From the NCBI GenBank assembly GCA_905233945.1, contig CAJOFY010000020.1, positions 75,690-139,689 on the forward strand: DNA of 64,000 bases. The letters run 5' to 3'. Position numbers and translations under genes: made by a program. Within the stretch, counting starts at the first letter, position 1; every line of letters starts with the position of its first letter. The stretch is from an uncultured bacterium (GTDB lineage Bacteria; UBP6; UBA1177). The notes under the pieces are model-generated. The model searched no databases, was not told where the DNA came from, and saw only the letters and a program-made list of their open reading frames with translations. Below, in pieces: positions 6,133 to 25,320 of this stretch.

Positions 6133-6164
6133 AGCTCTTAATTTTTTCCAAAAAAATCTCCGAA

Positions 6165-6197: not shown

Positions 6198-6230
6198 TTG
6201 GTGTGATTGGTTAATTTTTAGAGGTATCCC

Positions 6231-6985: not shown

Positions 6986-7039
6986 TAGTAATCATAATAC
7001 TTTTCCATGTCGGAAAGAAATCTTAAAAAAATCCCAAAA

Positions 7040-7071
7040 TTCCGGAAAAACCAAAACTCCGCCGCTTTATA
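7040..7071 (+). promoter_or_regulatory. Regulon promoter motif, copy 5
   Basis: TTCCGGAAAAACC with GG at 7044 and GCTTTATA at 7064-7071, spacing 20; start codon 44 nt after GCTTTA. Leader AGGTGTTTGGTTGTTAAC. Confidence 0.7.
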
Positions 7072-7107
7072 CAGGTGTTTGGTTGTTAACTTTCGAAGGA
7101 GGAAAGG

Positions 7108-8040: not shown

Positions 8041-8069
8041 ATGTGTCCGCAGACAAATTTTTTTCAAAA

Positions 8070-8102
8070 TTTCCGGAAAAACCGGAAACCCGCCGCTTTA
8101 TA
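8070..8102 (+). promoter_or_regulatory. Regulon promoter motif, copy 6
   Basis: TTTCCGGAAAAACCGG with GG at 8075 and GCTTTATA at 8095-8102, spacing 20; start codon 50 nt after GCTTTA. Confidence 0.7.
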
Positions 8103-8144
8103 GAAGTGTTTGGTTGGTTTGTTAACGTTTTTTAGGAGGTTATC

Positions 8145-8807
8145 ATGTCAGAAGTTATCATTTCAAAACTTATAGAAGGTTTCTTTACACTGATCATTGT
8201 TCTTGCATCCATTGCTGCTGTTTCTGCTATTTTGAAGTCCTTTTTTAAAAGATATCTCAAGAGTGATCCCGGAATAACTGTCTCAAACTCTTATATAGTC
8301 GAGGCTTTAAAACATATCTTGGAATTGGCGATGTGTGAAATTAACTATAGCGATGTCTTCGACTTGGAAAGCGGAAGATGGATCAAAGCTAAAGGAATGA
8401 TCGTGTGTAAGGGCAAAGTTAAATACGGATTCAAGATAGATAGCGAGAAAAAAGATGGAGACGTGCTTGTCGTCAATTTGCATGGACCTGAGATCCTTAG
8501 CCACGAGATTATTGAAAAGAAAGTAGCTAATACTGCTAAATTAAAAAAACTTAAAGACCAGGAAATCACGAGTGCTATTGAAAGTAAAAAAGAGGAATAT
8601 AAAAAGAATATGGAAATGAAGAGAGAGATAGTAATAGCAAAACTTCGTGAGATAATAGAACAGATCAGACCTTTCTTGAATCCGAAGGAGAAATTACGTA
8701 TCGAAGTCGCCGGTGAAACTGTTTATCAAAACTATGAGGATTCCGAATTTGATAAAATAGTGTCTCTGATATCGACAAAAAACATCACGGATAAAACAGC
8801 CGCATGA
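8145..8807 (+). CDS. DUF4230-like membrane-anchored protein
   Basis: 220 residues. Residues 8-32 form one membrane helix (FFTLIIVLASIAAVSAIL). The soluble part has a beta-rich segment with YGFKIDS and VVNLHGPEILSHEIIE, which resembles the core of the DUF4230 family (a short hydrophobic strand, then P-E-I, then an acidic stretch). A long charged helix (about 125-180) and a C-terminal segment follow. The protein at 11972-12715 has the equivalent motif IIIPKPEIFSNEVVE, so they are likely paralogues. The role of DUF4230 is unknown to me. AGGAGG precedes the ATG. Confidence 0.6.
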   Translation: MSEVIISKLIEGFFTLIIVLASIAAVSAILKSFFKRYLKSDPGITVSNSYIVEALKHILELAMCEINYSDVFDLESGRWIKAKGMIVCKGKVKYGFKIDSEKKDGDVLVVNLHGPEILSHEIIEKKVANTAKLKKLKDQEITSAIESKKEEYKKNMEMKREIVIAKLREIIEQIRPFLNPKEKLRIEVAGETVYQNYEDSEFDKIVSLISTKNITDKTAA

Positions 8808-8821
8808 GCTGTGGTTTATAA

Positions 8822-8854
8822 TTTCCGGAAAAACCAAAAATTCAACGCTTTATA
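8822..8854 (+). promoter_or_regulatory. Regulon promoter motif, copy 7
   Basis: TTTCCGGAAAAACC with GG at 8827 and GCTTTATA at 8847-8854, spacing 20; start codon 8891 is 44 nt after GCTTTA, which supports 8891 over the upstream in-frame ATG 8879. Confidence 0.7.
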
Positions 8855-8890
8855 GAAGTGTTTGGTTGTTAACTTTAGATGGAGGAAAGA

Positions 8891-9847
8891 ATGAGATTCA
8901 TTACCGAGTGCATCACAGTTTTTCTGTTTTATGTCTTTGATTTCGATCTTGTTTCTTGGTGTACTGAAAAGGCGGAAAAGTGGGCTTCGAAACACACTGA
9001 AACAATAACGCTCAAAAACGGTTTGAAAATGCTCAAGGCGGAAAAGCCGTTTCCTTTCTTCTATAGAATTCCGTTGTCTTTCCCTGGCATATACAATAAG
9101 AAACGTGCCGACTGGTCAGCTTTGTGGAAAATTGCAGAAAAAGACCAGGATATAATTCTTATATGTTATTTCCTGCACGGTTCGAGAGTGGATATCACGA
9201 CAACAGAATCGGGAGATTTAAAAGCAGATATGAACCGTGTTAAATCGGATAGGATCATAAGGTTTTCCCAGTCAAAGATAAATGTCGGTTTCAGACTGCC
9301 GGTAAGGTGGGAGGAACTCATTCTTGCGGCGGAGCAGAGCTGCGATCCTAACGAGACTTTAAATCCGATGGATGCTAAGATGCAGTCTGAAGATTTCAAT
9401 TTAAGTGTGTCTTTAGAGAATCTCTGGTGGAAAATCTGTGCACGGGTAGATAAATTAAAAAGAGTGTTTTCCGGTACAAAAAAAATCAGCGAGGAAGAGG
9501 ATAGTGCTGAAAGAAAGTCTGTCGAAGAAAATGTGCGGCTGATTGAAATTAAGGACGGACAGAATCTTCTTGTAGGCGAAAATCTTATTCTTAACAGAAG
9601 CCTGGGAAAATTTTCAAAAGAAAAGAATGTAAAATTCATACTTGAAAGAGATCAGGAAAGCAGGAGTGCGACACTAATGACTTTCGGCGGTGATGCGGAA
9701 CTTGATTTGAGAAAACTGCAATCGGATACGGTTATATTTACCAACGGTAAAGTGGCTTTACTCCGCATGGATATGCTGAGCAACGGGGATGTCGCGGAAA
9801 TGCTGAAAAAAGTGCTCCCGGAAAAAACTGCGGAAGAGGGAGTTTAA
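8891..9847 (+). CDS. Uncharacterised protein, paralogue of the 7108 gene
   Basis: 318 residues, no family recognised. It has a hydrophobic N-terminus (CITVFLFYVFDFDLVSW), a central segment with basic and aromatic residues, a charged linker near 200-215 (KKISEEEDSAE) and a C-terminal beta/alpha segment matching the protein at 7108. An upstream ATG at 8879 lies inside the ribosome-binding site (GGAGG at 8881-8885), so ATG 8891, 5 nt after it, is taken as the start. It is the last gene before a decayed copy of the promoter and CRISPR-leader sequences. Confidence 0.72.
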   Translation: MRFITECITVFLFYVFDFDLVSWCTEKAEKWASKHTETITLKNGLKMLKAEKPFPFFYRIPLSFPGIYNKKRADWSALWKIAEKDQDIILICYFLHGSRVDITTTESGDLKADMNRVKSDRIIRFSQSKINVGFRLPVRWEELILAAEQSCDPNETLNPMDAKMQSEDFNLSVSLENLWWKICARVDKLKRVFSGTKKISEEEDSAERKSVEENVRLIEIKDGQNLLVGENLILNRSLGKFSKEKNVKFILERDQESRSATLMTFGGDAELDLRKLQSDTVIFTNGKVALLRMDMLSNGDVAEMLKKVLPEKTAEEGV

Positions 9848-9859
9848 AAAATCTCCGAA

Positions 9860-9892
9860 TTTCCGGAAAAACCAGCGATTCTCTACTTCGTA
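9860..9892 (+). promoter_or_regulatory. Regulon promoter motif, decayed copy 8
   Basis: TTTCCGGAAAAACC with GG at 9865, but the -10 position (9885-9892) reads ACTTCGTA instead of GCTTTATA. The spacing is kept at 20. No gene follows, only the orphan leader copy, so this promoter has probably been lost. Confidence 0.45.
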
Positions 9893-9915
9893 GAAGAGTT
9901 TGATCGTTAACTTGC

Positions 9916-9990
9916 TGAAATCTTTATTTTACACTTCTCTCTGATATATTCCGGCATGTTCGTTGACAATTGAGAAACAGATAGATTTGC
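9916..9990 (+). other. Orphan copy of the CRISPR leader
   Basis: About 75 nt nearly identical to the leader at 2440-2518, again directly after a promoter motif. No CRISPR repeat follows at once; instead a CCCTCTCC...GGCGAGGG repeat is at 10003-10031 and a decayed family B repeat at 10134. It looks like the remains of a third CRISPR locus. Confidence 0.6.
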
Positions 9991-10133
9991 TATGACCTCA
10001 CCCTTAATCCCTCTCCAGTGTGGCGAGGGAAATGAAAATGTTCCGCAATTTTGCCTTGTTTTTGAAGTTTTTTGGTGGGTACGGAATTTTTGCTTGAAAA
10101 ACGCAATATTTCTTGCTATTTGGAAAGACATCC

Positions 10134-10405
10134 GTTACAGGTAAGCGGAACCTAGGCTCCGGTCCTTCGACAGGCTCAGGAACCGATTGTTCTCTAGGCG
10201 TAGAGACGTTTCCTGAAACGTCTCAAAAGAACCGATGTTTACCGGGAATGAGACGTACCATGGTACGTCTCTACAGCGGAACGCCACACAGGGCGTTCCC
10301 TACGGTTTCATTGCCGTGGTTTCCCTCGCCACACTGGAGAGGGAACAAAAGGGTGAGGGCTTATGCGGGCGGGCCGCCCGCGCTCCCACAAAAATCTGTT
10401 TCTCA
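10134..10405. repeat. Decayed CRISPR repeat B plus dispersed element, copy 4
   Basis: Bases 10134-10163 read GTTACAGGTAAGCGGAACC and on to CTCCGG, a degenerate family B repeat, joined to CCTTCGACAGGCTCAGG exactly as at 437 and 2894. Hairpins are at 10203-10224 (stem GAGACGTTTC) and 10250-10271 (perfect 22-nt palindrome, stem GAGACGTA). Then follow GGAACGCC/GGCGTTCC, the CCCTCGCCACACTGGAGAGGG module and the CAAAAATCTGTTTCTCAATT tail. The gene-free stretch 9848-10505 holds only these repeats and promoter copies. Confidence 0.75.
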
Positions 10406-10430
10406 ATTCTTTTTTATTTTTTTCCTGAAA

Positions 10431-10463
10431 TTTCCGGAAAAACCTGAAATTCACCGCTTTAAG
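10431..10463 (+). promoter_or_regulatory. Regulon promoter motif, copy 9
   Basis: TTTCCGGAAAAACC with GG at 10436 and GCTTTAAG at 10456-10463, spacing 20. The first ATG downstream (10506) is 50 nt away, the same distance as in other copies, while the MYG1-like start is 114 nt away. Confidence 0.65.
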
Positions 10464-10505
10464 TATGTGTGAATGTTTTTTATTAACTGATTTTTGGAGT
10501 TTAAA

Positions 10506-10556
10506 ATGAACGGAAACCAGACCATCGACACTTTCTTAAATGGCAATGATGATTGA
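10506..10556 (+). CDS. Short leader ORF, 16 residues
   Basis: ATG 10506 opens a 16-codon frame (product MNGNQTIDTFLNGNDD) ending at TGA 10554-10556, 13 nt before the MYG1-like start. TGGAG stands 6-10 nt upstream. Its distance to the promoter motif (50 nt) equals that of other first genes of the regulon, which suggests it is translated, possibly as a leader peptide or coupling ORF. Too short for any other test. Confidence 0.4.
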   Translation: MNGNQTIDTFLNGNDD

Positions 10557-10569
10557 TCAGGAGGAAATC

Positions 10570-11433
10570 ATGACGCAGAAAAGCAGGATCTTTGTTCACG
10601 GCCTTAAAGCCCACGCAGACGATATGTGGGCGTGCGGACTTCTTATCGCATCGAATCCCGGCATAAAATTTACAGAAATAATCAGAGATGCGAAAAGGAT
10701 CGGCGAGGCCGCTGACAACGATTTCGTGCTTGACTGCGGAATGAAACACGACGGGGAACATTATTTCGACCATCATCAGTTTGAAAGCACCGAAGATGTT
10801 GACTGCGCTTTGACGCTCGTTGCAAAAAGGTTCGCTCCGTGGACGCTTACCGATACGAAATTCGGTCCGCTCATTGAGCGTGTCAGGGTGCAGGACAACT
10901 TCGGCATCCCGGCTGCCGAGAAAAAATTCGGAAAGTCTTCATCGTGGATCGCTTCAGAATGTGTTATGGTAAAACTTTTTGAATCGGAACCTTTGAAGAT
11001 CGCTAATATGCTTGCTGACGGTTTCAGGAACAGAATTTCTGAAAACAATGAGGTCAAAGAAGCTGAAAAATGGATAAAAGAAAATTCTTCTCTTGAAACT
11101 TTTGAAAACGGTCTCAAGGTTCTTGTTATCACATCGTCTCCTTTTAAATCGGGTTTTTCAATCGCAGGATTCAATGCCGCGAGCAGTCTTTATTCCGGAT
11201 CTGTTGAAGCAGGGGTCATCTACGGCTGGAACACCGACGGAAGCGATTCAAGGACCTTGTTCAGAACACACTCTGAAAAAAATGTCGATTTCACTGATTC
11301 TATACCTGAAAAACCTGTATTCTGCCACAACAGCGGATTCCTTCTTATTTTCGATCCAGCATACGATACGGAATACAGGAATCTTGTTCGTCAGGCATAC
11401 TGTTCCGACGGAAAATTGGATAAAACAGCGTAA
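10570..11433 (+). CDS. MYG1/UPF0160-like putative phosphoesterase or exonuclease
   Basis: 287 residues. The N-terminus carries HGLKAHADDMWACG, comparable to the THNGTFHxDE start of MYG1/UPF0160 proteins, then DCGMKHDGEHYFDHHQ (about 59-74), the family's DHHQ metal-site motif. MYG1 proteins are DHH-related enzymes; the eukaryotic one is a 3'-5' RNA exonuclease. A metal-dependent phosphoesterase function here follows from the family, the substrate is unknown. AGGAGG precedes the ATG. Placed ahead of a small membrane protein gene and the GTPase operon. Confidence 0.72.
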   Translation: MTQKSRIFVHGLKAHADDMWACGLLIASNPGIKFTEIIRDAKRIGEAADNDFVLDCGMKHDGEHYFDHHQFESTEDVDCALTLVAKRFAPWTLTDTKFGPLIERVRVQDNFGIPAAEKKFGKSSSWIASECVMVKLFESEPLKIANMLADGFRNRISENNEVKEAEKWIKENSSLETFENGLKVLVITSSPFKSGFSIAGFNAASSLYSGSVEAGVIYGWNTDGSDSRTLFRTHSEKNVDFTDSIPEKPVFCHNSGFLLIFDPAYDTEYRNLVRQAYCSDGKLDKTA

Positions 11434-11454
11434 ATATTTTTGCAGGAGGAAACG

Positions 11455-11829
11455 ATGATCGAAACGAACTATGATCAGATTACTAAAATAAGAAGTTACA
11501 GATGGGTGAGCGCGATCGTGAGCGGAACAACCATGATTTTCGTGTCTGGTTTTTTCTCAGCTCTTTTGTTTTCGGCTGCTATTATCGCAACTGCCTATCT
11601 TGACAGTTTCAGTCTCTTTGTTCCGAAGATGCTTCGCAATGAAAGCGGTGCCCCTGCTGCCTGGGCCGAGAATCTGCTGCCTTTCGGCATGATGTGCCTG
11701 GCGGCGCTGGTCTTTGCGATTATGGGACACGATTTTGCAGCTTTTATCATCGGTCTGGCCGCCATCATCGATTTTATGAAGGACCGGCTGAATATCGTCG
11801 AAACCCTGAAGAGCCGCATAAATAAGTGA
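11455..11829 (+). CDS. Small integral membrane protein
   Basis: 124 residues with three or four membrane segments: AIVSGTTMIFVSGFFSALLF and the adjoining SAAIIATAY, LLPFGMMCLAALVFAI, and DFAAFIIGLAAIIDF. The ends are polar. No family recognised. AGGAGG stands 4 nt before the ATG, and the gene starts 21 nt after the MYG1-like stop, so the two are probably cotranscribed. Confidence 0.65.
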   Translation: MIETNYDQITKIRSYRWVSAIVSGTTMIFVSGFFSALLFSAAIIATAYLDSFSLFVPKMLRNESGAPAAWAENLLPFGMMCLAALVFAIMGHDFAAFIIGLAAIIDFMKDRLNIVETLKSRINK

Positions 11830-11897
11830 TGCAGAAACGGGAAGAAAACTGTCACTGCAGGCTCAGGAGTATGAATTGTTGGCAAAATATAAAAAAA

Positions 11898-11929
11898 TTT
11901 CGGAAAAACTGATTTTTCACCGCTTTAAA
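11898..11929 (+). promoter_or_regulatory. Regulon promoter motif, copy 10 (dynamin operon)
   Basis: TTTCGGAAAAACT with GG at 11902 and GCTTTAAA at 11922-11929, spacing 20; start codon 11972 is 50 nt after GCTTTA. The first half is TTTCGG rather than TTTCCGG. This is the likely main promoter of the 11972-20618 operon. Confidence 0.65.
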
Positions 11930-11971
11930 CAGTTGGAAGTTGAGTTTTTTAACTTTTTAGAGGAGGTCAGG

Positions 11972-12715
11972 ATGATGACAACGGAAGCGATGGTCGTTAT
12001 AGCTCTGCTGCTCGGTTTTTTCGGCTGTTTTGCTCTTTATTCGATGTGGAAATCCTTTGTCGGCGGCGGTTCCGCTTATCCGGGTGCTCAGGGATATGAG
12101 AGGTGTTCAGGCACTCAGATCTATCAGTTCGATGTAGTCAACTGTGCTACCCTGAGCAACTATCTGAGATCCACATTGAAAGTTGTAGCTTATGAGGATG
12201 ATTATTACAAAAAGGGTAGCCTGGACAAATACTGGCTCTTCTCCCACAAAATAATGAGAGTCCTTTATCACGGTCGTATTACGGGCGGATTCAATATGAC
12301 ACAGCTGTATGTCGAGAAGGGGGCCGGCGGTGTTTTCAATATAATTATTCCAAAGCCCGAAATATTCAGCAACGAAGTCGTTGAAAGAGATGTCCTTCTC
12401 ATTAAGAACGGCTGGTGGAATAAGGTTACCGATGAGGACCGCAACACTCTGGAGATAGATACTAAACTCAATGCCGAGCAGGAAAAATATCAGGAACTTT
12501 ACAATACTTCGGTAAGATATCTCGCGTTTTTCATCAACGGTATCATGGATAATCTGCCGAATCAGGTCCCGTATTCCGTGAGAGTTGACGGTATACCTGT
12601 CAATCTGAACGCAGGCGAACAGCTGAAACGTATAGGAAATTCGAAGGAGAGGCTGAAACTGCCGTATCGTTCCGAAATTAATGAAAGAGGACTTGTCAGG
12701 TACAGCAAACGCTGA
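11972..12715 (+). CDS. DUF4230-like membrane-anchored protein, second copy
   Basis: 247 residues. One N-terminal membrane helix (VVIALLLGFFGCFALY). The soluble part holds YHGRITGGFNMTQL and IIIPKPEIFSNEVVERD, matching GFKIDS and VVNLHGPEILSHEIIEKK of the 8145 protein. An upstream in-frame ATG (11876) would run through the promoter motif, so ATG 11972, after GAGGAGG, is chosen. It ends 17 nt before the first dynamin-like gene and is probably the first gene of the operon. Confidence 0.62.
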   Translation: MMTTEAMVVIALLLGFFGCFALYSMWKSFVGGGSAYPGAQGYERCSGTQIYQFDVVNCATLSNYLRSTLKVVAYEDDYYKKGSLDKYWLFSHKIMRVLYHGRITGGFNMTQLYVEKGAGGVFNIIIPKPEIFSNEVVERDVLLIKNGWWNKVTDEDRNTLEIDTKLNAEQEKYQELYNTSVRYLAFFINGIMDNLPNQVPYSVRVDGIPVNLNAGEQLKRIGNSKERLKLPYRSEINERGLVRYSKR

Positions 12716-12732
12716 TTTTAGTGGAGGTGAAG

Positions 12733-14745
12733 ATGGAAAGTCAGAAAAATGTAAAAAATATTGTTGTTGACCTGCAGGAAGCCGTAAGCAGGTGCATGAC
12801 AGGTGATGGCAATAACTTTTGGGACAGAATCTCGTCGATTCTCAAGGATGCGAAGCAGCATCTTGACGGAGAAAAGGTAAAAATCGCGTTTGCGGGAAAG
12901 ATGAAAGCCGGAAAATCAACTCTTGTCAATATGATTCTGGGCGAAGATCTTTCTGCGACGGGAATCACACCGGCGACAAAAACCATCATCGAATTCCACT
13001 GCGATCTGGATGATCCGAGAATCGAGTTCATCAAGAACGACAGGATTTATTCAAAGATGCCGCTTGACGAAGAAGGGAGGAGCGAAGTCCAGAGAAAGAT
13101 GACAACTTCTACTTCCGAATTCGATTTCATCAAAATTTACTGTGACAACTCGATTTTGAGCAGATTCGTTCTTGTTGATGTCCCCGGAACTGCTGATCTT
13201 GACCGCGGAGTCGAAGCGAAAATCAAGAATTATCTGACAAAAAACGAAGTCGCAACGATCATCTGGGTAAGCGAAATCTCGACTTCTATGCCTAAAGACG
13301 AGTGCGACTACATCAAAGATCTTATAGGTCTCGGCAAAAACATGATTTTTGTTCTCAACTGCAAAAGCGCCTTCACCGAGGGGGACAAAAACAAATTCAA
13401 GGAGAATTTCAAAAGAAATATTCCCGGCTACGAGCCTTTTATCTTCAGTGTTAAAAAAGAGGATAAACCACAGATCGTTCAGAAAAACGGCGAGGATGAC
13501 AGCGATTTCGCCAGAAGAAAAACGAAACTTGAAAGCAAATACAAAGAATCGTCAGAGGCTCAGGCAGCTTTTGTCCGTTATCTCAACAGAAGTTCCAAAG
13601 AGATCAAGGAGAAAAACGGGATCGCCGTCATAAAGATGATCCCCAACGAATTCGAGAAGGTTTTATACGACGAGCGGGCAAGGGCAATCTGCGAAAGAAC
13701 GGAAATCAGGAAAAAATTCTTTGACGAGTTTATTCCTAAATTTTCGGTCTTCTCCAATTCAATAAAATCTTTGCAGGGGGACTTGAACAGATGGTGGCTC
13801 AAAAAATGCACAAATCTTGAGACGCAGATCAAAAACAACAGATATTCAGGCAATCTCAGAGAAAACGATATTGTCACAAAATGGCGCTCTGATCTGTATG
13901 ATGATATTCTGAAAAAAATAGACATCATTTTTGACAGGTTCGTCGATTTCGACAAGTACGACTTTGTTGATCTGGATTTCGTCCAGACGGTCATTCTTCT
14001 TAAAGAAACAAGAATGGAGTTTCTGAACAGAGAGTTCATCAATCCTGATCTGGATAGTTTGTGGTGCGGTTACGACAAAAACATTGCAGAGGTAAGCGAA
14101 TATATGTACAAAGATCTCCAGCAGATCTCCAGCAGTGTCAAATTCTTCTTCACTCTTATTATCGAAGATTGTTTCAGACGGTTTGTTGCAGCCCACAACG
14201 ATATTTGGAATCATTATCTGGACAGAAAAGCTGAACTTGCAGATTGTATGGAAACCTCCGGAGTTCCTTTCAGCAGAAAATCTTTGTTTGTCAAAGACGA
14301 GTCGTTTGAAACGAGTTCCGGCTATGATGCATGGGCTGATGAAACACTTGCGATTTACGTAAACGAGCTTCTCAGTGATGAAAAACTGACAAACAGTGAA
14401 AAAATACTGTTCAAAAGTTTTTACACTGCTCTGAACGGTAAGAAAGAGATAAATACATATCTCAAAAAGGGCTCAGGCAAAGCCTTGCTTTACCCGATAA
14501 CTTTCAGACTCAAAGCCGAGACGACGGAAGGAAGCGAACTCAGGTCGATCATAGACGAAGATGATTCATGGAACGACGCTAATTTCGAGTCGACTACAGA
14601 CTTCGTGGATGAAATAATGCGCGGCGGACACAGGGATTTCAACGATTTCTTTCGTTATTTCGTTTTTAGTGTCGCCAGGGTGTCGGAAATCAAAAAAGGT
14701 GCCGATCTTAATTGTGACTTTATGCCGGAAAATTATAAAAATTAG
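12733..14745 (+). CDS. Dynamin-like GTPase 1
   Basis: A 670-residue large GTPase. Walker A GKMKAGKST at 55-63, switch threonine in TPATKT about 79-84, G3 DVPG at 149-152. The G4 position reads NCKS (209-212) rather than N/TKxD, so guanine specificity may be altered. Helical, charged regions follow, as expected for the stalk of bacterial dynamin-like proteins, which bend, fuse or tether membranes on GTP hydrolysis. No clear membrane-spanning segment is seen. ATG 12733 is used, with GGAGGTGAAG before it; a GTG at 12721 would overlap that site. 9 nt separate it from the next gene. Confidence 0.85.
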   Translation: MESQKNVKNIVVDLQEAVSRCMTGDGNNFWDRISSILKDAKQHLDGEKVKIAFAGKMKAGKSTLVNMILGEDLSATGITPATKTIIEFHCDLDDPRIEFIKNDRIYSKMPLDEEGRSEVQRKMTTSTSEFDFIKIYCDNSILSRFVLVDVPGTADLDRGVEAKIKNYLTKNEVATIIWVSEISTSMPKDECDYIKDLIGLGKNMIFVLNCKSAFTEGDKNKFKENFKRNIPGYEPFIFSVKKEDKPQIVQKNGEDDSDFARRKTKLESKYKESSEAQAAFVRYLNRSSKEIKEKNGIAVIKMIPNEFEKVLYDERARAICERTEIRKKFFDEFIPKFSVFSNSIKSLQGDLNRWWLKKCTNLETQIKNNRYSGNLRENDIVTKWRSDLYDDILKKIDIIFDRFVDFDKYDFVDLDFVQTVILLKETRMEFLNREFINPDLDSLWCGYDKNIAEVSEYMYKDLQQISSSVKFFFTLIIEDCFRRFVAAHNDIWNHYLDRKAELADCMETSGVPFSRKSLFVKDESFETSSGYDAWADETLAIYVNELLSDEKLTNSEKILFKSFYTALNGKKEINTYLKKGSGKALLYPITFRLKAETTEGSELRSIIDEDDSWNDANFESTTDFVDEIMRGGHRDFNDFFRYFVFSVARVSEIKKGADLNCDFMPENYKN

Positions 14746-14754
14746 GAGGAAATC

Positions 14755-15366
14755 ATGAGAAAAATCAACTTGTCAGGAGTTTTTACAGTTTTGTTTTCAA
14801 CTTTGCCGGTCATTGCGCAGGAAGCTGCTGCGTCTTGTCCGGAATGTCCCGAATGTTCAAGCGGTTTCGGGCTTGCATTCTTCTTTCTGATAGTCGGTCT
14901 GGCGGGCGGAGTATTCGTCGCTAAAAAGTATCTGACGCAGAATTCCAAGCCGCAGGCAAGTGACAACTTCATCGAACTTGATGCCAGATCCCGCGAAATC
15001 GATGAACTGAAATCGCAGATCAAAACCAAAGAAAGCGATGCCGAGGCAGTAAAGGCAGATGTTGAAAAGCTAAAAAGCAAAATCGGTGAAGTGCTCAAAA
15101 AGGCTGACGAAAATTACTACAATGAGATCGTGAACTCGTCTGCACCGGCTTCGTTATACAATCAGGTCGGGATGATCATCGACAAACTGAAGGCCGATCT
15201 TCCTTCTTTCGGTGTCAGAAACTATCTCAACGGCGGAATTTCGGTCACTGTCGAACAGTTCAATTCAGCAATCAGAGCAAAAGACGGCGCGGAAGCTCTG
15301 CGTGTCGCCGGACTTTTTGTGAAAGAATACGAAGAAGCAAAAGATTTTTACAAGGAGGAAAAGTAA
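14755..15366 (+). CDS. Membrane protein with signal sequence and coiled coil
   Basis: 203 residues. An N-terminal hydrophobic segment (GVFTVLFSTLPVIA) is followed by a Cys-rich loop CPECPEC (about 28-34), a second membrane helix (GLAFFFLIVGLAGGVFVAKKY), a charged coiled coil (about 75-125, EIDELKSQIKTKESDAEAVK) and a globular end. The CPECPEC motif could bind a metal. No family recognised. It lies between two dynamin-like GTPase genes and ends 1 nt before the next; its 3' end carries the AAGGAGG for that gene. It may be a membrane receptor or tether for the GTPases (inference). Confidence 0.7.
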   Translation: MRKINLSGVFTVLFSTLPVIAQEAAASCPECPECSSGFGLAFFFLIVGLAGGVFVAKKYLTQNSKPQASDNFIELDARSREIDELKSQIKTKESDAEAVKADVEKLKSKIGEVLKKADENYYNEIVNSSAPASLYNQVGMIIDKLKADLPSFGVRNYLNGGISVTVEQFNSAIRAKDGAEALRVAGLFVKEYEEAKDFYKEEK

Positions 15367-15367
15367 G

Positions 15368-17662
15368 ATGAAGACACTTGAAGAATTCAACCAGCAGAAA
15401 CAGCAGCTTATTGAAAAAGAAGGTAAACTTGCCGAAGGGCTTGAAGCGATCCTCAACGCAGAAAAAGACGGCGGAGTTCTGCCGAAAAGCGCGTGCGACA
15501 AACTTGAAACACTGATCAACTCGCTTTACGAAAAGAAGCAGGCTCTTGAAACAGACAGATTCTATATCGCGATTTCGGGTGCGATAAAATCGGGAAAATC
15601 TACTCTGCTGAATGCCCTTCTTTTCAAAAAAGATGTCCTTTCATGCGATCCCACGCCGTGCACGGCAAAGCTTACGATAATGGAAAAAGCCGATACGAAA
15701 GAGGTCAGGGCTCAGTTCTATTCCGCAGCAGAATGGGAAGAGTGGAAAAAATCGGCTGCGAGCAGCGTAGATGACAGCATAAACAAAGAAGATATGGAAA
15801 TCTATATCGAAAAAGGCGGAAAACATTCAGAAAAGCTCGGCAAAACAGAGATTATCAGTGAAGAAAATCTGAAGGACTACACGGCAAGAGAGGGCGAACT
15901 TATGCCGCTTGTCAATACGATTACGATCCATGACCCCGAGATTTCGCTTGACGGAGCGCAGATAGTCGACACTCCCGGAACAAACGATCCGGTAGTAATG
16001 CGCTCGAAAGTCGCCGAGGAATACATCAAAAAAGCAGACGCTATAATTTATGCTCTTTATGCCGGAAAAGCATTGACGGAAAGCGACAGAGCGATGCTTC
16101 AGGATATAATAATCCAGTCAGGAAAGAACGCGAATAACCTGATTTTTGCAGTCACCAAAAAGGACACTCTCAAAAAAGAGAGCTTCGACGGAAAAATAAA
16201 CCAGGTTTTTGACAGTTATTTCGATCAGAACCTCGCTGCGAAGGAAAAAGGGGGAAAAATGTCAACCGATCTCAGCAAGTGTCCGCGTGTTTTCGTAAGT
16301 GGAGAAGCAGCGAGAATAGCTCAGGACAAAGCTGCAAAAGTTGAATTTGACGAAGCGCGCGAGCTTAGAAAAGATGAACTGGGAGAGTTCCTTGACGATC
16401 TGAGCCCTGAATACATCCTCAAATATTCCGGAATCGCCGAACTCAAGGAGAAGATCGAAACATACCTCATTGAAAACAAGAAGGAAGTCGTTATCGACGG
16501 CAACACGAATTTCATAGAATACATCAAGGAAGCGTGCAGGGAAGGGCTCTTTGCCGATCTTGACAAGGAATTCAAGGAAAAACTTGCAAGTATCCAGAAG
16601 AAAATTTCCGAAATAGATGCTGAAATCAAGGTAAAGGTCGAAGAAATTTCAAGACTTGACAACAAACGCAACGACATAATGCAAAGACGCAGTGACACCA
16701 GACTCCGCGAAGAGTTCACAAACAAACTTTGCGAAGGTGTCATCTACTGGCTGGCCAAAGATATGGAACGCGAAATTACAAAGAAATTCGGAGATTCCGC
16801 AACGGCCAAAATCAGGCAGCAGGTCCGTGATATATGCAATAACGAAAGAAACATGGTTGCAGAGCTTGAAAATGATAAAGGCTGGTTCATGGGAGATGCC
16901 AGGGCTGCAAGGCAGAAAGCAGAGGCGATTTTCAAGAGGCTCAAAGTTCTTGAGGGATTAGTCAGAAGTTCGTGGCGTGATGTCAAAGCCGCAGTTTCAG
17001 AAGCTACGGATAAAAATCTGCCGAAAATAACTAAATTTCTGAAAGACGACTTTGAAACTGCACTGGCTGCATGGCGCAACGATATGGCAGACGTTCTCAA
17101 AGGGAGCATATATGCTGATCAGGCAATAATTTTCCCTGAATATAAAATCGCCGAAACAGTGAACGAACTTAAAAAGAGTGTTTCAGAAAAGATTCTGGAG
17201 TGTGTCAGAGACATTCAGGTAAACACACAGCCGCTCGCCACATCTCTCGGAAATCTTGCTCAGGAGGCAATAGACAAATGGTTCAGCGGTCCGACTCAGA
17301 ATGAAGTGATCGAAAAATATATTTCAAGTATGACCGACTACATAAACGGGCTTGAAGTATATGCTCTCAACAATATCGAAGCGACCAGACAGAATGTGAG
17401 CGGAACTGTTGAAAAAATCAAAGAGGAGCTCAACAATCAGTTGTCGGAAGACTTTTTTGATGTCAGAAAAGAGCTTTTTGACGGCGAATTCGATGCTGCG
17501 ATCGAGCAGATCCGGAGAAAAACGGAAGAATCCGCGGCAGACCTCGAGACGATCAAAAAAAGAAAGTCCGCAAACGAGGCGGAAGAAGAGGCGATGAGGG
17601 CGGAATACAACGCAAAAATCGCTAAAATCGAAGAATACAGGAACAAAATCGAAAACATTTAG
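15368..17662 (+). CDS. Dynamin-like GTPase 2
   Basis: 764 residues. Walker A GAIKSGKST at 71-79, G2 in PTPCTAKLT near 95-103, G3 DTPG at 201-204 and G4 TKKD at 263-266, so the full GTP-binding set is kept. A long helical region follows (about 400-440 coiled coil, again 660-764), typical of the stalk and bundle parts. An insertion of about 80 residues separates the switch regions. The C-terminus is a charged coiled coil. It is clearly a different paralogue from GTPases 1 and 3. In bacterial systems paired dynamins act as hetero-oligomers; three in one operon is unusual. Confidence 0.86.
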   Translation: MKTLEEFNQQKQQLIEKEGKLAEGLEAILNAEKDGGVLPKSACDKLETLINSLYEKKQALETDRFYIAISGAIKSGKSTLLNALLFKKDVLSCDPTPCTAKLTIMEKADTKEVRAQFYSAAEWEEWKKSAASSVDDSINKEDMEIYIEKGGKHSEKLGKTEIISEENLKDYTAREGELMPLVNTITIHDPEISLDGAQIVDTPGTNDPVVMRSKVAEEYIKKADAIIYALYAGKALTESDRAMLQDIIIQSGKNANNLIFAVTKKDTLKKESFDGKINQVFDSYFDQNLAAKEKGGKMSTDLSKCPRVFVSGEAARIAQDKAAKVEFDEARELRKDELGEFLDDLSPEYILKYSGIAELKEKIETYLIENKKEVVIDGNTNFIEYIKEACREGLFADLDKEFKEKLASIQKKISEIDAEIKVKVEEISRLDNKRNDIMQRRSDTRLREEFTNKLCEGVIYWLAKDMEREITKKFGDSATAKIRQQVRDICNNERNMVAELENDKGWFMGDARAARQKAEAIFKRLKVLEGLVRSSWRDVKAAVSEATDKNLPKITKFLKDDFETALAAWRNDMADVLKGSIYADQAIIFPEYKIAETVNELKKSVSEKILECVRDIQVNTQPLATSLGNLAQEAIDKWFSGPTQNEVIEKYISSMTDYINGLEVYALNNIEATRQNVSGTVEKIKEELNNQLSEDFFDVRKELFDGEFDAAIEQIRRKTEESAADLETIKKRKSANEAEEEAMRAEYNAKIAKIEEYRNKIENI

Positions 17663-17674
17663 TTGGAGGTAAAA

Positions 17675-18166
17675 ATGGCATTCAAACCTGAAAAAAATGT
17701 AGCTGACAAAGCAGCGGAAATCCTGAACGGCGGCAAAATCGAGGAGTTTTTGAAAAACTCGATGTCGCAGAAAAAAGAGAGCAAATTCGCCGATATCCCG
17801 ATATTCGGCGACAAACTGGACATCGCAAGCAGGATCGACGATCTGATCTCTTATTTCAAATCGCCCGATGTCCCTAAGGGAACGAAGGTCATGATCCTGG
17901 CGATGGTGATCTACATGTTTATTCCGAACCTGCCGATTCCTTTCTACATCGATGAACTTCTTGTCGGAGGATTGCTGGTCAAAAAGATCCACAAGGAGCT
18001 TGATGCATTCAGACGCGGCGAGTACAGCGGAGATCCGAATGTCGTCGACATGAAAGCTATTACGGCAAAAGATGAAGAGAAAAGGAATCCGTTCCTTGAT
18101 CTTGACGATGTTGTCGTTGAAGACAAAGAAGACGTAAAAAAAGAAAACCCGTTTTTAAACATTTAA
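17675..18166 (+). CDS. DUF1232 (YkvA-like) membrane protein
   Basis: 163 residues. The core SPDVPKGTKVMILAMVIY, then MFIPNLPIPFYIDELLVGG (about 72-108), is the DUF1232 signature (segment with P-D-x-x-P and I-P-x-x-D-D/E) and holds one or two hydrophobic helices. The C-terminus is acidic with two NPFL motifs (residues about 133-136 and 159-162). Function of the family is unknown. ATG 17675 follows TTGGAGGTAAAA. It sits between dynamin-like genes 2 and 3. Confidence 0.75.
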   Translation: MAFKPEKNVADKAAEILNGGKIEEFLKNSMSQKKESKFADIPIFGDKLDIASRIDDLISYFKSPDVPKGTKVMILAMVIYMFIPNLPIPFYIDELLVGGLLVKKIHKELDAFRRGEYSGDPNVVDMKAITAKDEEKRNPFLDLDDVVVEDKEDVKKENPFLNI

Positions 18167-18181
18167 CAAAAGGAGAGAAAA

Positions 18182-19840
18182 ATGAGAAACGATTTTATGC
18201 AGAAATTTGAAACACCTGTAAGAAACCTTGAAGGAAAACTCGCGGAATTCGGTTCGACACTCAAAGTCGACAGAGAGAAACTTTTTGCGGAACCCGAGTA
18301 TTTCGTAACGATCGTCGGAGAGTTCAGCGCAGGAAAATCCTCGATTCTTAACAGACTTTTCTTCGGTGAGAAAGACACTATCCCGACAGCTGTCCTTTCT
18401 GAAACCTGCCTTATCAACGAAATCCGCTACGGCGATTCACAGAAAGCGGCACTTGTTTCAGGCGGAGTCGAGAGAGACATCGATGTTTCCGCTATTTCCG
18501 AAGTTTCAAAGAAAGAACTTATCGAGCAGAAAACCGACAGCATGATCAAAATGGAATGCGCGGACGACCTACTTGCGGACAAAGTTGTCTTTGTTGACAC
18601 TCCCGGCGTAAACTCGATCAACGATTCGCACACCGACATCACTTTCGGATATCTTCCGAAATCGCAGTTCGTCCTTTTTGTAATCGATATCAATAACGGC
18701 GGACTTTCAAAGTCGGAAATCGAATTCATCAAAAACAAAGTTTTCACTGTTACGCAGAACAACATGTTCATTCTCATCAACAAAGCAGAGAGCATGCCTT
18801 CCTCGCACTGTGAAAAAATCAGAGCTCAGGTTATAAAAGATCTAGCAAACACCGGCATCAAACCTGAAAGAGTATGCCTTGTCAGCGGACTTAAAGGAAC
18901 CGGAATAGCTGAACTCAAAGCAACTCTCAAACGCGAACTTGACGCAAAAAGAGCTGAATACTACAAAAACTACACTCAGGGTCTTATTGCAAACTTCGCA
19001 GAACTTGCTGCAGCCGAGCTCAAAATGAAACTCGTCAATATTGGCAAGGATGCAAATGCTTTTGCAGCAGACAAAGCGGCTATGGAAGCTGAAATCAAAG
19101 CTGTTTCTGCAAAGTATGAGCGGCTTGAGGCAAGTCTTAACACAAAAATCAAAGCTGTTTTCGAGCACTATGACAGCAAAATCGCAACAGATCTTTCCAA
19201 AATCGCACAGAAACTGTGTGCTGTCGTAAATGGTACTGAGCTCAGTGACATTACCGGCGACAATCTCAGCGAAGGTGTTCAGGTCGCTCTGAAGAAGTAT
19301 GTTGAAACTGATCTTCAGCCCGCTTTCTATAACGATATCACCAAACTGCTCTCTGAAATTTCAGTCGATGCCGAAAGTCTTATTGGTGATTTTACTACAG
19401 GCATAAGCCACGATTTCTGGGCTCCCGGCAAACTTTTAAGCGGTCTTCTGTTCCTGCTTGAGACCTGTATTTACAATCTTATTCTTCCGCTGGGATGGAT
19501 AACAGCGTTTATAGGCCAGCTTTTGGGCAGAAAACTGCTTCTCCCTCTTACCGGTTTTATGGAAAAACCTGTGAAGTCGATAATCTGCAGTAATATCCAG
19601 AAAGCTTTCGACGAGGAGATGATCCCTGCGTTTATAGACAACTTCAACGCAAAGCAGAATGAAGTCGCGCTTACAATCATCAAGGGAATCGAAGATGCTG
19701 TAAATTCACAGGTTTCAATTATCGAAAACAGCTACAGCGAAAAGAACATCGAGGCTCTGAAGGCGCAGGACAACGCAAAAGCGGCTATTGAAACCGCAAT
19801 CAAAGAGGCAGAAAATCTCAAAGTTCTTGCTGCAAATTAG
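18182..19840 (+). CDS. Dynamin-like GTPase 3 with membrane paddle
   Basis: 552 residues. Walker A GEFSAGKSS at 46-54, G3 DTPG at 139-142 and G4 NKAE at 200-203. A helical stalk region is followed at about 412-460 by a strongly hydrophobic double segment (LLSGLLFLLETCIYNLIL and LGWITAFIGQLLG), the place where bacterial dynamin-like proteins carry a membrane-inserting paddle. The C-terminus returns to a charged helix. Of the three GTPases only this one has an obvious membrane segment, so it may be the anchor of a complex. It begins 15 nt after the DUF1232 gene with AAAGGAG before the ATG. Confidence 0.86.
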   Translation: MRNDFMQKFETPVRNLEGKLAEFGSTLKVDREKLFAEPEYFVTIVGEFSAGKSSILNRLFFGEKDTIPTAVLSETCLINEIRYGDSQKAALVSGGVERDIDVSAISEVSKKELIEQKTDSMIKMECADDLLADKVVFVDTPGVNSINDSHTDITFGYLPKSQFVLFVIDINNGGLSKSEIEFIKNKVFTVTQNNMFILINKAESMPSSHCEKIRAQVIKDLANTGIKPERVCLVSGLKGTGIAELKATLKRELDAKRAEYYKNYTQGLIANFAELAAAELKMKLVNIGKDANAFAADKAAMEAEIKAVSAKYERLEASLNTKIKAVFEHYDSKIATDLSKIAQKLCAVVNGTELSDITGDNLSEGVQVALKKYVETDLQPAFYNDITKLLSEISVDAESLIGDFTTGISHDFWAPGKLLSGLLFLLETCIYNLILPLGWITAFIGQLLGRKLLLPLTGFMEKPVKSIICSNIQKAFDEEMIPAFIDNFNAKQNEVALTIIKGIEDAVNSQVSIIENSYSEKNIEALKAQDNAKAAIETAIKEAENLKVLAAN

Positions 19841-19895
19841 TTGAATCTTCTTCTGGCGGCCGGTAACGGCTGCCAGGGGTGTTTTGGAGAGAAAA

Positions 19896-20618
19896 ATGAC
19901 GCAGAAAATCCCATATCCGGTAAAAGTGAAACTGATGCAGCATTTCAACAAAAAACTTGATTTCATTGAGTTGGATCTGAAGGAAAAACTCCTTTTGAAT
20001 CCTAAACTTGATGTTCTTGACGGCAAAGTGTTGCAGCAGATTGTCAACGAACTCAATGGATCCATAGAAAAAGTCCAGCTTGACTTCATGCGGAAACTTT
20101 CAAAAGAGCATGAAAAGGCTGTTTCTTCTGTTTCGGATGCGGGGATTTCAACTCCTAAAGCCGGAAAAATCGAGAACATGGCAGGAGGAGCAGCTGCAGG
20201 ATTTACCGGCGGAACCGCTGCCAGTACTGCGGCAGGTCTTAATTTTTATACGACTGGAGCAAGTGTTGCAGGCAGCATGGGACACGGCGGTATTGCAACA
20301 GCTCTTACAGTACAGGGAAAGGTGGCGTCAGGAGTAAATACCGTGGCAGGATGGTTTGGACACGCTCCGATCGCTCCTGTAACTATTGCCGAAGTCGTTG
20401 CATCTAAACTCGGTGTAACTGCGGCTGCTGTTACTGCGGCAATGACGGCAGGTACTGCAATTGTCGCTGCTGCAGGAGCCGCATACCTTATGAATGAATT
20501 TTCAAAACCCGAAAAACGGCAGGAAATCAAAAAGGCACTTGTCAAAAGTTACAACGACAAAATCAGGCCTCAGCTTGAAGACTGGGCGAAAGAGCAGATC
20601 GATTTGTGCAACAAGTGA
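19896..20618 (+). CDS. Gly/Ala-rich membrane-hairpin protein, paralogue of the 6231 gene
   Basis: 240 residues. Polar helical N-terminus, then a long Gly/Ala/Thr-rich hydrophobic stretch (about 95-210; for example GGAAAGFTGGTAASTAAG and TAIVAAAGAAYLM) and a polar tail DKIRPQLEDWAKEQI like that of the 6231 protein. No known family recognised. ATG 19896 is used with GGAG before it; an in-frame TTG at 19884 overlaps that site. It is the last gene of the operon, 55 nt after GTPase 3. Confidence 0.65.
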   Translation: MTQKIPYPVKVKLMQHFNKKLDFIELDLKEKLLLNPKLDVLDGKVLQQIVNELNGSIEKVQLDFMRKLSKEHEKAVSSVSDAGISTPKAGKIENMAGGAAAGFTGGTAASTAAGLNFYTTGASVAGSMGHGGIATALTVQGKVASGVNTVAGWFGHAPIAPVTIAEVVASKLGVTAAAVTAAMTAGTAIVAAAGAAYLMNEFSKPEKRQEIKKALVKSYNDKIRPQLEDWAKEQIDLCNK

Positions 20619-21821: not shown

Positions 21822-21967
21822 TCTCAAAAGAAATCCCTCTCAAAACTCCGCTGTTCAAGCGCCCCTGAAACTTAGTGTTTTTACCGCTTCTTGCCTCCCC
21901 TGAAGTAGGGGAGGTGTCTCGCAGTGACGGAGAGGTTGGAGCTGCCGCAAGCGGCTGAGGGGTCGGC

Positions 21968-22244
21968 TTACTGAGCCATCATGATTCCGCCGACTGTGCG
22001 AAAAGTGCGAACGATTCAACGATACCGGGAGCCGCGAAGCTCATACCGAAAACTGACGGTTTCTTGGAAACTGCGAGAATCGCGCTGGAGCAGGCTTTGC
22101 CATGGAAAATTGCGCTGACCATGAATGCAAGGCCGCAAGCGAGACCGATTCCGAAGATTGCGAAATAAAGACGCATTTAAATTTTTGAACTGCATGAATT
22201 TTCTGCCGCTGCCGTCAAAACACCATCTGTACCATTCGAGGAAA
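21968..22244 (-). pseudogene. Decayed atpI 3' end / atpK fragment (third copy)
   Basis: Minus strand. 21968-22176 matches the second half of atpK, including GMSFAAPGIVESFALF, but has a 1-bp deletion near 21992 that shifts the frame before the normal end. 22185-22244 matches the end of atpI (complement of CTGCCGCTGCCGTCAAAACA). The first half of atpK and the region around the atpI stop are deleted. It is a dead relic of the module found intact at 33573-34224 and 23351-23997. Confidence 0.85.
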
Positions 22245-22305
22245 ACTCGACAAAAATCTGATAATATGGTAAAAGAATTGAGTTTTTTGAATGGAGGGAA
22301 CCGAT

Positions 22306-22668
22306 ATGCTTAGAAATGCGGTGCTTTTAAGCATCAAAGACAAGGAAGCATCTGAAAATATTATGGAAATAATCAAGTGTTTTGTTGAAAAGCTGAAACC
22401 GGTCAAAATTTTCCTTTTCGGTTCTTTTGCAGCCGGAACAAACAACGAAGAGAGCGATTTTGATTTTTATATCGTTGTTGACGACAACCGGAATGTCGCT
22501 GATGTTTCCACAGAGGCTTACAAAGCTATCAGATATCTCAGAAAAAGACCTGTTGACATCGTCGTGGGAACAAAAACGAGGTTCGACAAATACAGTAATT
22601 CAAATGATACGCTTTATGTCGAGGGCGAAGTCGCGAGAAACGGAAAACTCCTGTATGAGCTGAATTAA
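22306..22668 (+). CDS. MNT-type nucleotidyltransferase antitoxin
   Basis: 120 residues of the minimal nucleotidyltransferase fold: GS at 39-40 followed by DFDFY (acidic residues 51 and 53) and RPVDIVV with D84 give the three metal ligands. In HEPN/MNT modules this enzyme adds AMP to the HEPN toxin and so silences it. ATG 22306 is preferred because GGAGGG (22293-22298) lies 7 nt upstream; the ATG at 22291 overlaps that site. The HEPN gene starts 12 nt downstream. The pair lies between two relics of the atpI-atpK module. Confidence 0.85.
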   Translation: MLRNAVLLSIKDKEASENIMEIIKCFVEKLKPVKIFLFGSFAAGTNNEESDFDFYIVVDDNRNVADVSTEAYKAIRYLRKRPVDIVVGTKTRFDKYSNSNDTLYVEGEVARNGKLLYELN

Positions 22669-22680
22669 TAAGGTGTCCGC

Positions 22681-23130
22681 ATGGAAAACAACAACGAGAA
22701 GTTGAATTTGGAACAGAAAAAGGCGGAAGTAAAGGCATGGTTGGCTTATGCTGACATGGATTTTAATACGGCAGATCATCTGTTGAACGGTGCTTTTTAT
22801 CCGCTGCCGCTCGAAATTATATGTTATCACAGCCAGCAGGCAGCCGAAAAAGCGGTGAAGGCGGTTATTGTGTATTTCGGAAATCGCGGCGGAATGCCGA
22901 AAGTCCACGATATATCCTTTCTGATGAATCAGGTACATAACTCCGTAAAAGAAAAAACTGGTGTCGAAATTTCCGAAACGCTTCTGGATTATGCCGACAA
23001 TCTGACAAAATATGGCGTAATGCCGCGATATCCTAATGAAATCGAGGTCGATGAATATATGGCAAAAACCGCTGTAGCTCAGGCTTCCAAAATTCTGGAA
23101 TGGGCGAAAAGCGTCATTTATGCTGCTTGA
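22681..23130 (+). CDS. HEPN-domain protein, toxin of the HEPN/MNT pair
   Basis: 149 residues, all-helical HEPN type: HSQQAAEKAVKAVIVYFG near 51-68, PKVHDISFL near 74, and PRYPNE near 118, the usual conserved points of this family. Family members cut RNA when not AMPylated. I do not see a clean RX4-6H catalytic motif, so it may belong to the branch without proven nuclease activity. Cotranscribed with the MNT gene. Confidence 0.82.
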   Translation: MENNNEKLNLEQKKAEVKAWLAYADMDFNTADHLLNGAFYPLPLEIICYHSQQAAEKAVKAVIVYFGNRGGMPKVHDISFLMNQVHNSVKEKTGVEISETLLDYADNLTKYGVMPRYPNEIEVDEYMAKTAVAQASKILEWAKSVIYAA

Positions 23131-23288: not shown

Positions 23289-23350
23289 TCTAAAAAAGAT
23301 TCCCAAGTCCCTCGCATCACTGGAGAGGGATTTAGGGTGAGGTTTTCAGC

Positions 23351-23779
23351 TTACGAAGCCATCATGATTCCGCCGACGAGAGCGAAAAGCGCGAATGACT
23401 CAACGATACCGGGAGCCGCGAAGCTCATACCGAAAACAGACGGTTTCTTGGAAACTGCAAGAATTGCGCTGGAGCAAGCTTTGCCCTGGAAAATAGCGCT
23501 GACCATGAATGCAAGGCCGCAAGCAAGGCCGATTCCGAAGATAGCGAAATCGTTTTCTGCTTTAAGTGCGCCCTGAAGGATGATCATGAGTGCAAATCCG
23601 TAAATCGACTGAGATGCAGGCATTGCGGAAAGTGCTACGAATTTTGCGTGGCCTTCTTCAACTTTCGCCATTGCGCCGTGCGAAGTCATACCTGCAAGAC
23701 CGCAGCCGATCGAGCTTCCGATTGCCGCGAGGCCGAGGCAAAGAGCGGGTCCGAAATTCTGGAAATTTTCAAAAATCAT
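23351..23779 (-). CDS. atpK: V/A-type ATPase subunit K, second intact copy
   Basis: 142 residues with four membrane helices in two hairpins. The translation is identical to that of 33573-34001, although the DNA differs at several third positions. This means selection has kept the product while the copies drifted. Residues S56, Q57, Q98 and E127 match the Na+ ligands known in the K ring of Enterococcus hirae (T64, Q65, Q110, E139). It has GGGAG before the ATG and is preceded only by a fragment of atpI, so its promoter is unclear. It may supply extra ring subunits or be a spare copy. Confidence 0.92.
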   Translation of the reverse strand: MIFENFQNFGPALCLGLAAIGSSIGCGLAGMTSHGAMAKVEEGHAKFVALSAMPASQSIYGFALMIILQGALKAENDFAIFGIGLACGLAFMVSAIFQGKACSSAILAVSKKPSVFGMSFAAPGIVESFALFALVGGIMMAS

Positions 23780-23802
23780 TTTTTTCTCCCTGAAAAAAGT
23801 TA

Positions 23803-23997
23803 TTAATCGTTGCCTTTAGCATTTGCTGTTAAATTCTTGAACGGCACGAACTTTCTGCCGCTGCCGTCAAAACACCATCTGTACCATTCGAGGAAATTGA
23901 GCCTGAGCCCGTGGATCACGCCGCCCATGAGGCAGAGCGCGATGTTGAGCAAACCTACAACACCGAGATCAAGGACCTGTCCTGCCAGATTGTTGAA
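23803..23997 (-). pseudogene. atpI 3'-end fragment with intact frame
   Basis: 195 nt matching 34025-34224 of the operon. It encodes the end of subunit I, including HGLRLNFLEWYRWCFDGSG and the natural stop at 23803-23805, and lacks the 5-bp insertion present in the operon gene. The homology stops at 23997; the rest of atpI is absent, so this is a duplication fragment and not a working gene. Confidence 0.85.
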
Positions 23998-24500: not shown

Positions 24501-25292
24501 TCACCTCTTAATTAGTCCTTTGTTTATATAAAGTTGATCCAGTATTTTCCCTGCATCCTCGCTATTTGTTGCATCTGTTGTTCCGGTTGCTTTTTTTGCT
24601 AAGTCAATATCGCCAAGTGTAAGAGGTTGTAATGATTTATGATATGCTGGATATGCAATTTTTAATTCTGCAAGTTTAGTGCTTTCTTCAAGTAACTTTT
24701 CATGACGCTCTGGCAATCTTCGCCGCAGTATATTTGCCATCAGTAATTCGCTGTAAATCCAAGGAGATAAGGTTCTGTCTGATGAAATTGTTGAATTGGC
24801 AGTGTTAATAAAAATAAAACTCTCGCATTTGTCTATCATTTTCGCAAGGGCACATTGTAACAACATGTGAACATGAGCGGTACTTCGATTTCGTTTGATG
24901 TAGTCGTACTCAAGATTGCCGTTAGGTGTCATTTGTATGCAATATGCCTCATCTATTTCTCTCAGTAAATCATCTGCATAGTGCCAGACAGTTGAATCGA
25001 TAAAACTCACTATCCCATGTTTCTCGTATAACCAGAGAGCTAATTGATTCGCCAAATTCTCGTCTTGATGCGAGTGAGAAATAAACACTTGAGCATTTAT
25101 TTCGGGAAACCAGTCTTTTTCCATCGCAGCTGCATCCAAACTTCCATCAAGAGACAAGTACTTTTTAAGACCTGCTGTTATCGCTGTTTTGTTTACATTG
25201 TAGTGACAAGGCATAAGTTTTGTATATACTTCGAATGGATTAAGTTTCTCTAGATCTTCTCTGTTCGGCTTAAAATTAAATCCCGCGAACAT
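24501..25292 (-). CDS. TIR-like domain protein
   Basis: 263 residues. After an N-terminal segment of about 60 residues comes AQVFISHSHQDENLANQL, then GIVSFIDSTVWHYADDLL and LREIDEAY, the start of a TIR fold (box 1 FISHSHQDE). TIR domains of bacterial defence systems often cleave NAD or make NAD-derived signals. I cannot identify the catalytic Glu with certainty. The ATG at 25292 is used because AAGGAGG stands 6 nt upstream; the open frame extends further into the end of the neighbouring gene but that part has no start signal. It is followed by a coupled membrane protein. Confidence 0.75.
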   Translation of the reverse strand: MFAGFNFKPNREDLEKLNPFEVYTKLMPCHYNVNKTAITAGLKKYLSLDGSLDAAAMEKDWFPEINAQVFISHSHQDENLANQLALWLYEKHGIVSFIDSTVWHYADDLLREIDEAYCIQMTPNGNLEYDYIKRNRSTAHVHMLLQCALAKMIDKCESFIFINTANSTISSDRTLSPWIYSELLMANILRRRLPERHEKLLEESTKLAELKIAYPAYHKSLQPLTLGDIDLAKKATGTTDATNSEDAGKILDQLYINKGLIKR

Positions 25293-25320
25293 TCTTAACC
25301 TCCTTTCAAAAAATTTTGTT

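Follow-up and report, generated by a model that had tools for sequence, protein, structure and literature searches.

A seven-gene operon encoding three dynamin-like GTPases and membrane-linked partners in an uncultured rumen bacterium

The bacterial dynamins described so far function singly, as fusions or in pairs, and mostly act as heterotypic pairs (PMC6104087; PMC4159319). In B. subtilis, DynA delays lysis by phages (PMC8844932), and Eleos/Dynamins have been scored as a defence type (PMC11811056). The literature mentions pairs, fusions, a split LeoBC and, for cyanobacteria, several copies, and we found no description of a three-dynamin operon in open-access papers (subscription papers were not covered). 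Here we analysed a 64,000-nt stretch (the window) of contig CAJOFY010000020.1 from an uncultured rumen bacterium with a 2.65 Mb genome (G000), and found that positions 11972-20618 carry an operon with three distinct dynamin-like GTPases, here called GT1, GT2 and GT3. Because other three-dynamin operons are present in distant bacteria and on plasmids, this operon is a member of a little-described class. We propose, with confidence that is evenly balanced, that the accessory operon encodes a heterotypic dynamin-like complex at the inner membrane, whose GTP-driven tethering, patching or fusing of membrane would protect the envelope; phages or other attackers are the most likely threat.

The seven open reading frames (ORFs) are all on the forward strand, are tightly packed and have preferred ATG starts with GGAG(G) ribosome sites. 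They encode D4230 (11972..12715, 247 aa, an N-terminal transmembrane (TM) helix at residues 7-25 and a DUF4230-like domain), GT1 (12733..14745, 670 aa), CC (14755..15366, a signal-like N-terminal helix, a CPEC motif, a TM helix at residues 38-56 and a coiled coil), GT2 (15368..17662, 764 aa), a small membrane-linked protein with NPF motifs (17675..18166), GT3 (18182..19840, 552 aa) and GA (19896..20618, 240 aa, helical with a long Gly/Ala-rich middle). The intergenic gaps are small, and the widest one, before GA, contains a stable hairpin (19850..19879, forward strand, 13-pair stem, -25.9 and -26.5 kcal/mol for two stretches), which is kept in the sister species (G012). A leader element at 11897..11971 on the forward strand, with the boxes GGAAAAAC-N11-CGCTTTA followed by a ribosome site, marks where the transcription unit starts; since it precedes D4230 and no leader stands between the operon genes, D4230 probably heads the unit. 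The genes follow one another in the same order in G012, with DNA identity of about 95% across 12.7-20.0 kb and 92% identity of the D4230 orthologue. The ratio of nonsynonymous to synonymous divergence (dN/dS) between the two species was 0.06-0.19 for the six genes from D4230 to GT3 (GA was excluded for its indel), lowest in the GTPases (0.06-0.09), 0.18 in D4230 and 0.15 in CC; the two genes directly upstream, encoding a MYG1-like protein and a 129-aa membrane protein, gave 0.20 and 0.24. Given these six ratios and the order kept in G012, the seven-gene block is a real unit under purifying selection and not a chance arrangement.

The original prediction, made from the letters and their ORFs, had described such an operon with membrane-linked partners, and both the ORFs and the three GTPases were confirmed: Dynamin_N, judged against the Pfam cut-off, was above it for GT1 (9e-15), GT2 (8.5e-22) and GT3 (2.2e-20), which also rank first to third among the Dynamin_N matches of the genome. 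GT1 has G1 GKMKAGKS, G3 DVPG and an altered G4, NCK (NCKS/NCKE), conserved in both orthologues; as NCK persists in an orthologue of merely 55% identity, it is a maintained property. GT2 has the complete motifs GAIKSGKS, DTPG and TKKD, and GT3 has GEFSAGKS, DTPG and NKAE together with a hydrophobic stretch at about 418-455 (the paddle, TM-like at 418-436). In the G-domain tree a long stem leads to each of the three and its orthologues, which makes the three old separate lineages and not recent copies.

GT2 was closest to Campylobacter DLP1 (5owv_A, 1.4e-20 by single sequence; profile 4.8e-33), and the profile match extends beyond the G domain to profile position 509/750, chain residue 574/732. 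A single-sequence comparison of GT3 with the PDB gave IniA (6j72) as the best match, and its profile match to Nostoc BDLP1 (1.2e-42, positions 34-568/573) ran from the G domain through the C-terminus. A dynamin stalk missing from two or more of the GTPases would, according to the original prediction, have spoken against a shared machine; a neck/trunk after the G domain was found in GT2 by profile match to Cj-DLP1 and the B family described below, and in GT3 by the BDLP1 match. For GT1 the closest solved structure by single sequence was Cj-DLP2 (5owv_C, 1.1e-8). Its two-sequence AlphaFold model, of low confidence (pLDDT 44, the model's own score), has long helices following the G domain; the top five Foldseek folds were all of the dynamin family, a hint only at TM-scores of about 0.16.

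Compared with Cj-DLP1/Cj-DLP2 (5owv, PMC6104087), the operon is alike in that GT2 resembles DLP1 and GT1 resembles DLP2, in its adjacent genes and in a presumed heterotypic assembly, but it has three GTPases and four small partners, distant sequences and no beta-lactamase-like partner. It shares heterotypic dynamin-like units and a membrane role with B. subtilis DynA, which is a fused pair, and with Streptomyces DynA/DynB, whereas its GTPases are unfused and a third one is present; the NCBIfam DynA model (NF052648) gave about 50 bits against a cut-off of 1600, so that none of them is a fused DynA by this model. LeoABC/Eleos and the operon have in common a LeoA/BDLP1-type GTPase (GT3), co-encoded dynamin-like proteins and an accessory distribution, and they differ in the weak scores, the unsplit GTPases, the third dynamin-like protein and the membrane partners found here. 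A Leo-like release of membrane vesicles or secretion is brought to mind by LeoA and LeoBC among the related models and by leo mutants, whose release of vesicle cargo is about halved (PMC4159319); yet the similarity to the Leo models is weak, no secreted cargo gene was recognised in the operon and the N-termini of GT1-GT3 showed no obvious signal peptide by eye, and we consider this role hardly probable. Envelope protection is preferred to it.

The original prediction had also placed three dynamins in one operon beyond the known systems, which did not hold, since triplets occur in other genera and on plasmids; its expectation that homologues would cluster in other genomes was borne out. Clusters with three Dynamin_N genes were present in at least G000, G012 (twice), G031, G125, G324 and G074 among the 389 genomes surveyed, and three-dynamin operons occurred in at least four other sampled genera. 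Three adjacent dynamin genes were found on plasmids of Calditerrivibrio, Lysinibacillus, P. aeruginosa (its A gene annotated as two pieces) and E. coli (5 of 5426 complete genomes, plasmid-borne every time). The triplet of A, B and C genes keeps its order and forms well-supported clades in a further G012 cluster (contig C65), Calditerrivibrio, Pseudomonas and Escherichia. With these triplets the operon shares three dynamin-like GTPases, of which GT2 is nearest the B subunit over its full length (B-family hidden Markov model, 111.6 bits over 34-725/735). In the G-domain tree GT2 stood near B with weak support (72/95), and GT1 and GT3 fell outside the A and C clades; therefore the operon, which also differs from the triplets in order and membrane partners and is not an A-B-C triplet, represents a distinct type. 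Conserved three-dynamin operons would show that bacterial dynamins form higher-order heterotypic machines, and the E. coli and Pseudomonas plasmid triplets would make the purpose of bacterial dynamins (repair, vesicles, phage defence) directly testable. More tentatively, and with less confidence than we give to envelope protection by this operon, complexes of three or four dynamins might constitute a separate undescribed class of accessory immune or envelope-protection systems in at least three lineages, namely the A-B-C triplets, Leo-like triplets and the membrane-partnered version, in which an altered-G4 GTPase would regulate an active pair and small membrane proteins would site the action. 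In one E. coli plasmid (L061:5739-13327) the three dynamin genes are followed by a gene for an 829-aa CFI-box-CTERM protein.

Presence of the operon was scored in 15 genomes of the genus and 28 of the phylum. It was found in three of the 15 (G000, G012 and a more distant relative, G001), a lower bound because part of the genus genomes are incomplete, and in none elsewhere among the 28; the two operon-bearing relatives are the rumen metagenome-assembled genomes RGIG10122 and RUG12558 (the latter deposited as uncultured Spirochaetales bacterium). The gene order given in the original prediction, DLP1-TM-DLP2-DUF1232-DLP3, is kept between G000 and G012 (the DUF1232 label apart, see below), and only three species, all of one genus, are known to have the exact set. 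Other multi-dynamin clusters are present in sister species (G012 C65, G006 and G009). A scan with a three-row GT3 alignment, in which poor patterns were chosen, gave only three loci in two related rumen genomes. No relatives of GT2 were found in the viral contigs or phages searched, and a viral origin is unsupported.

Synonymous divergence (dS) of the operon between G000 and G001 was 1.0-2.2, compared with 0.19-0.25 for core genes (V-type ATPase genes), and fell to 0.37 in the first part of GT3, which therefore indicates a mosaic. Between G000 and G012 the operon dS was 0.10-0.23 (0.32 in the upstream MYG1-like gene) and the core dS 0.16-0.29; a recent transfer between these two species was considered and dropped as unneeded, the operon dS resembling that of the core. 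The unit is accessory, patchily distributed and horizontally variable. In G001 its pieces lie on three presumably adjacent contigs, and stop codons were flagged in two of the fragments. The G001 orthologue of GT1 (L050:5263-8301) has an N-terminal extension of about 330 residues with repeated IF2_N-like segments, GT2 and the NPF protein are separated by a GA-like paralogue pair, and GT3 is followed by a fourth dynamin-like GTPase (L033:1050-3266), to which, within our set, one of the dynamins in the G074 cluster is most closely related. These differences of G001 from G000 and G012 (the fourth dynamin-like gene, the moved GA-like pair and the GT1 extension) would fit a loose accretion, in which dynamin-like genes gather in variable loci and the partners work separately, with no single machine; but order and packing are kept between G000 and G012, every gene compared is under selection and the A-B-C order is kept across distant bacteria, which makes accretion improbable.

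Ten intergenic leader copies of about 70 nt, the last being the one before D4230, were found at 2398-11897, all on the forward strand and each before a transcription unit, with fixed spacing of the two boxes. The two boxes in their exact form were found at seven sites in the G000 genome, none of them outside this locus, and at another seven in G012, spread over two contigs; one of these contigs bears the operon, and there a leader (C78:2620) stands at the corresponding place. A reversed control pattern was absent. A similar leader array is present in G002, where no dynamin gene was recognised. The island is therefore an array of co-regulated genes at the level of the genus, which in two species ends with the dynamin operon, and the leader resembles a promoter or an RNA leader specific to the island.

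In the mechanism we favour, the dynamin-like proteins would assemble at the inner membrane, on its cytosolic side. GT2 (Cj-DLP1-like) and GT3 (BDLP1/LeoA-like, with the paddle) would be the active pair, and GT1, whose non-standard G4 is conserved, would be a third subunit with a regulatory role. The complex would be brought to the membrane or anchored there by CC, D4230, the small NPF protein and GA, and GTP-driven assembly would tether, patch or fuse the membrane where it is damaged, by which the envelope would be protected. It is reasonable to infer a membrane-remodelling machine; we also infer complex formation, location, membrane action and a defence role, the last of which is only suggested by context. 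Envelope defence is favoured over housekeeping because the operon is accessory and fast-changing, related triplets are on plasmids and the neighbours are of defence type.

Several observations weigh against this proposal. The sequence profiles of GT1 cover the G domain only, and its stalk is putative. The PADLOC LeoA/LeoBC models gave 54.6 bits for GT3 (133-394) and 45.6 for GT2, without the strong LeoA and LeoBC matches of a Leo system (for comparison, members of the Lysinibacillus triplet had full-length Leo-model matches of 61-76 bits). The leader also precedes nucleotide-metabolism genes, which fits a stress or metabolic regulon, and nrdD, nrdG and a kinase gene, all metabolic, lie between the operon and a CARF gene about 9.6 kb upstream. 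The defence-type neighbours are context, from which a defence role is at most suggested, and our confidence in the proposal stays evenly balanced. The leader common to the operon and the nrdD/nrdG-type genes also speaks for a response to abiotic envelope stress, that is, a DynA/IniA-like complex for membrane repair or fission with no specific anti-phage role, as does IniA as the best single-sequence structural match of GT3; membrane surveillance, drug stress and fission are the processes in which DynA and IniA act. Mycobacterial IniABC (IniA, 6j72) indeed has a BDLP-type GTPase related to GT3, but its gene set is different, and neither an IniB-like gene nor an IniR-type regulator was recognised here. 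Moreover, the patchiness (3/15), the excess divergence of G001 and the plasmid-borne related triplets would be unusual for maintenance, and we regard an abiotic role as unlikely, though worth serious weight, beside the envelope defence proposed here.

Among the partner proteins, membrane segments were predicted in D4230, CC and the small NPF protein. The DUF4230-like label of D4230 was matched by Pfam, but with 21 bits below the cut-off of 27, and the protein has a single N-terminal membrane helix. A second DUF4230 protein, above the Pfam cut-off, is encoded about 3 kb upstream of the operon (8145-8807) behind its own leader copy. CC, proposed to be a membrane anchor, has the predicted CPECPEC in this genome; its relatives have SPECPEC and CPKCPEC, and only P29, C31, P32, E33 and C34 are invariant. 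The small protein at 17675-18166 had been labelled DUF1232, an identity we rejected: its three orthologues gave no Pfam match at E<=10, DUF1232 (PF06803) included, and the true DUF1232 gene of the genome is elsewhere, on C17. An alignment of the three orthologues showed one strongly conserved hydrophobic stretch, and homologues were found in this genus only. The protein also has, in an acidic C-terminal tail, two conserved NPF[LV]xx motifs, a possible docking motif. The GA orthologue in G012 has a large deletion within the Gly/Ala part; GA matched PADLOC LeoBC weakly (401-504), and its AlphaFold model is helical at low confidence (pLDDT 56). GA as a detached dynamin trunk or paddle was left as speculation, as comparing its profile with that of GT3 yielded no match (9% probability) and the model is poor.

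In the wider neighbourhood, the upstream CARF gene (770-2383) encodes a CARF-PDDEXK (Csx1/Card1-like) nuclease and lies beside CRISPR-like repeats. These repeats (175-353 and 2519-2900) flank the gene, are about 36 nt long with a period of 69-71 nt, end in GGTTGAAAC and are of two sequence types. Around other multi-dynamin clusters, PADLOC candidate genes flank those of G009 and G125, and a HerA-like gene lies inside that of G006. The G006 cluster (L051:5389-14542) holds two dynamin-like proteins without a standard P-loop, a 202/175-aa paralogue pair and this HerA/DUF87-type ATPase. PADLOC matches of L030:3697-5559 (mad3, AriA) were discounted as generic ABC-type ATPase matches. Downstream of the operon, a TIR protein (24501-25400) matched the ThsB model with 221 bits and adjoins two large proteins with Lcl_C domains; none of the genes scanned was recognised as ThsA. 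An MNT nucleotidyltransferase/HEPN pair is encoded at 22291-23130, and it lies between a partial and a full copy of a V-type ATPase K-subunit-like sequence (21963-22244 and 23346-23896).

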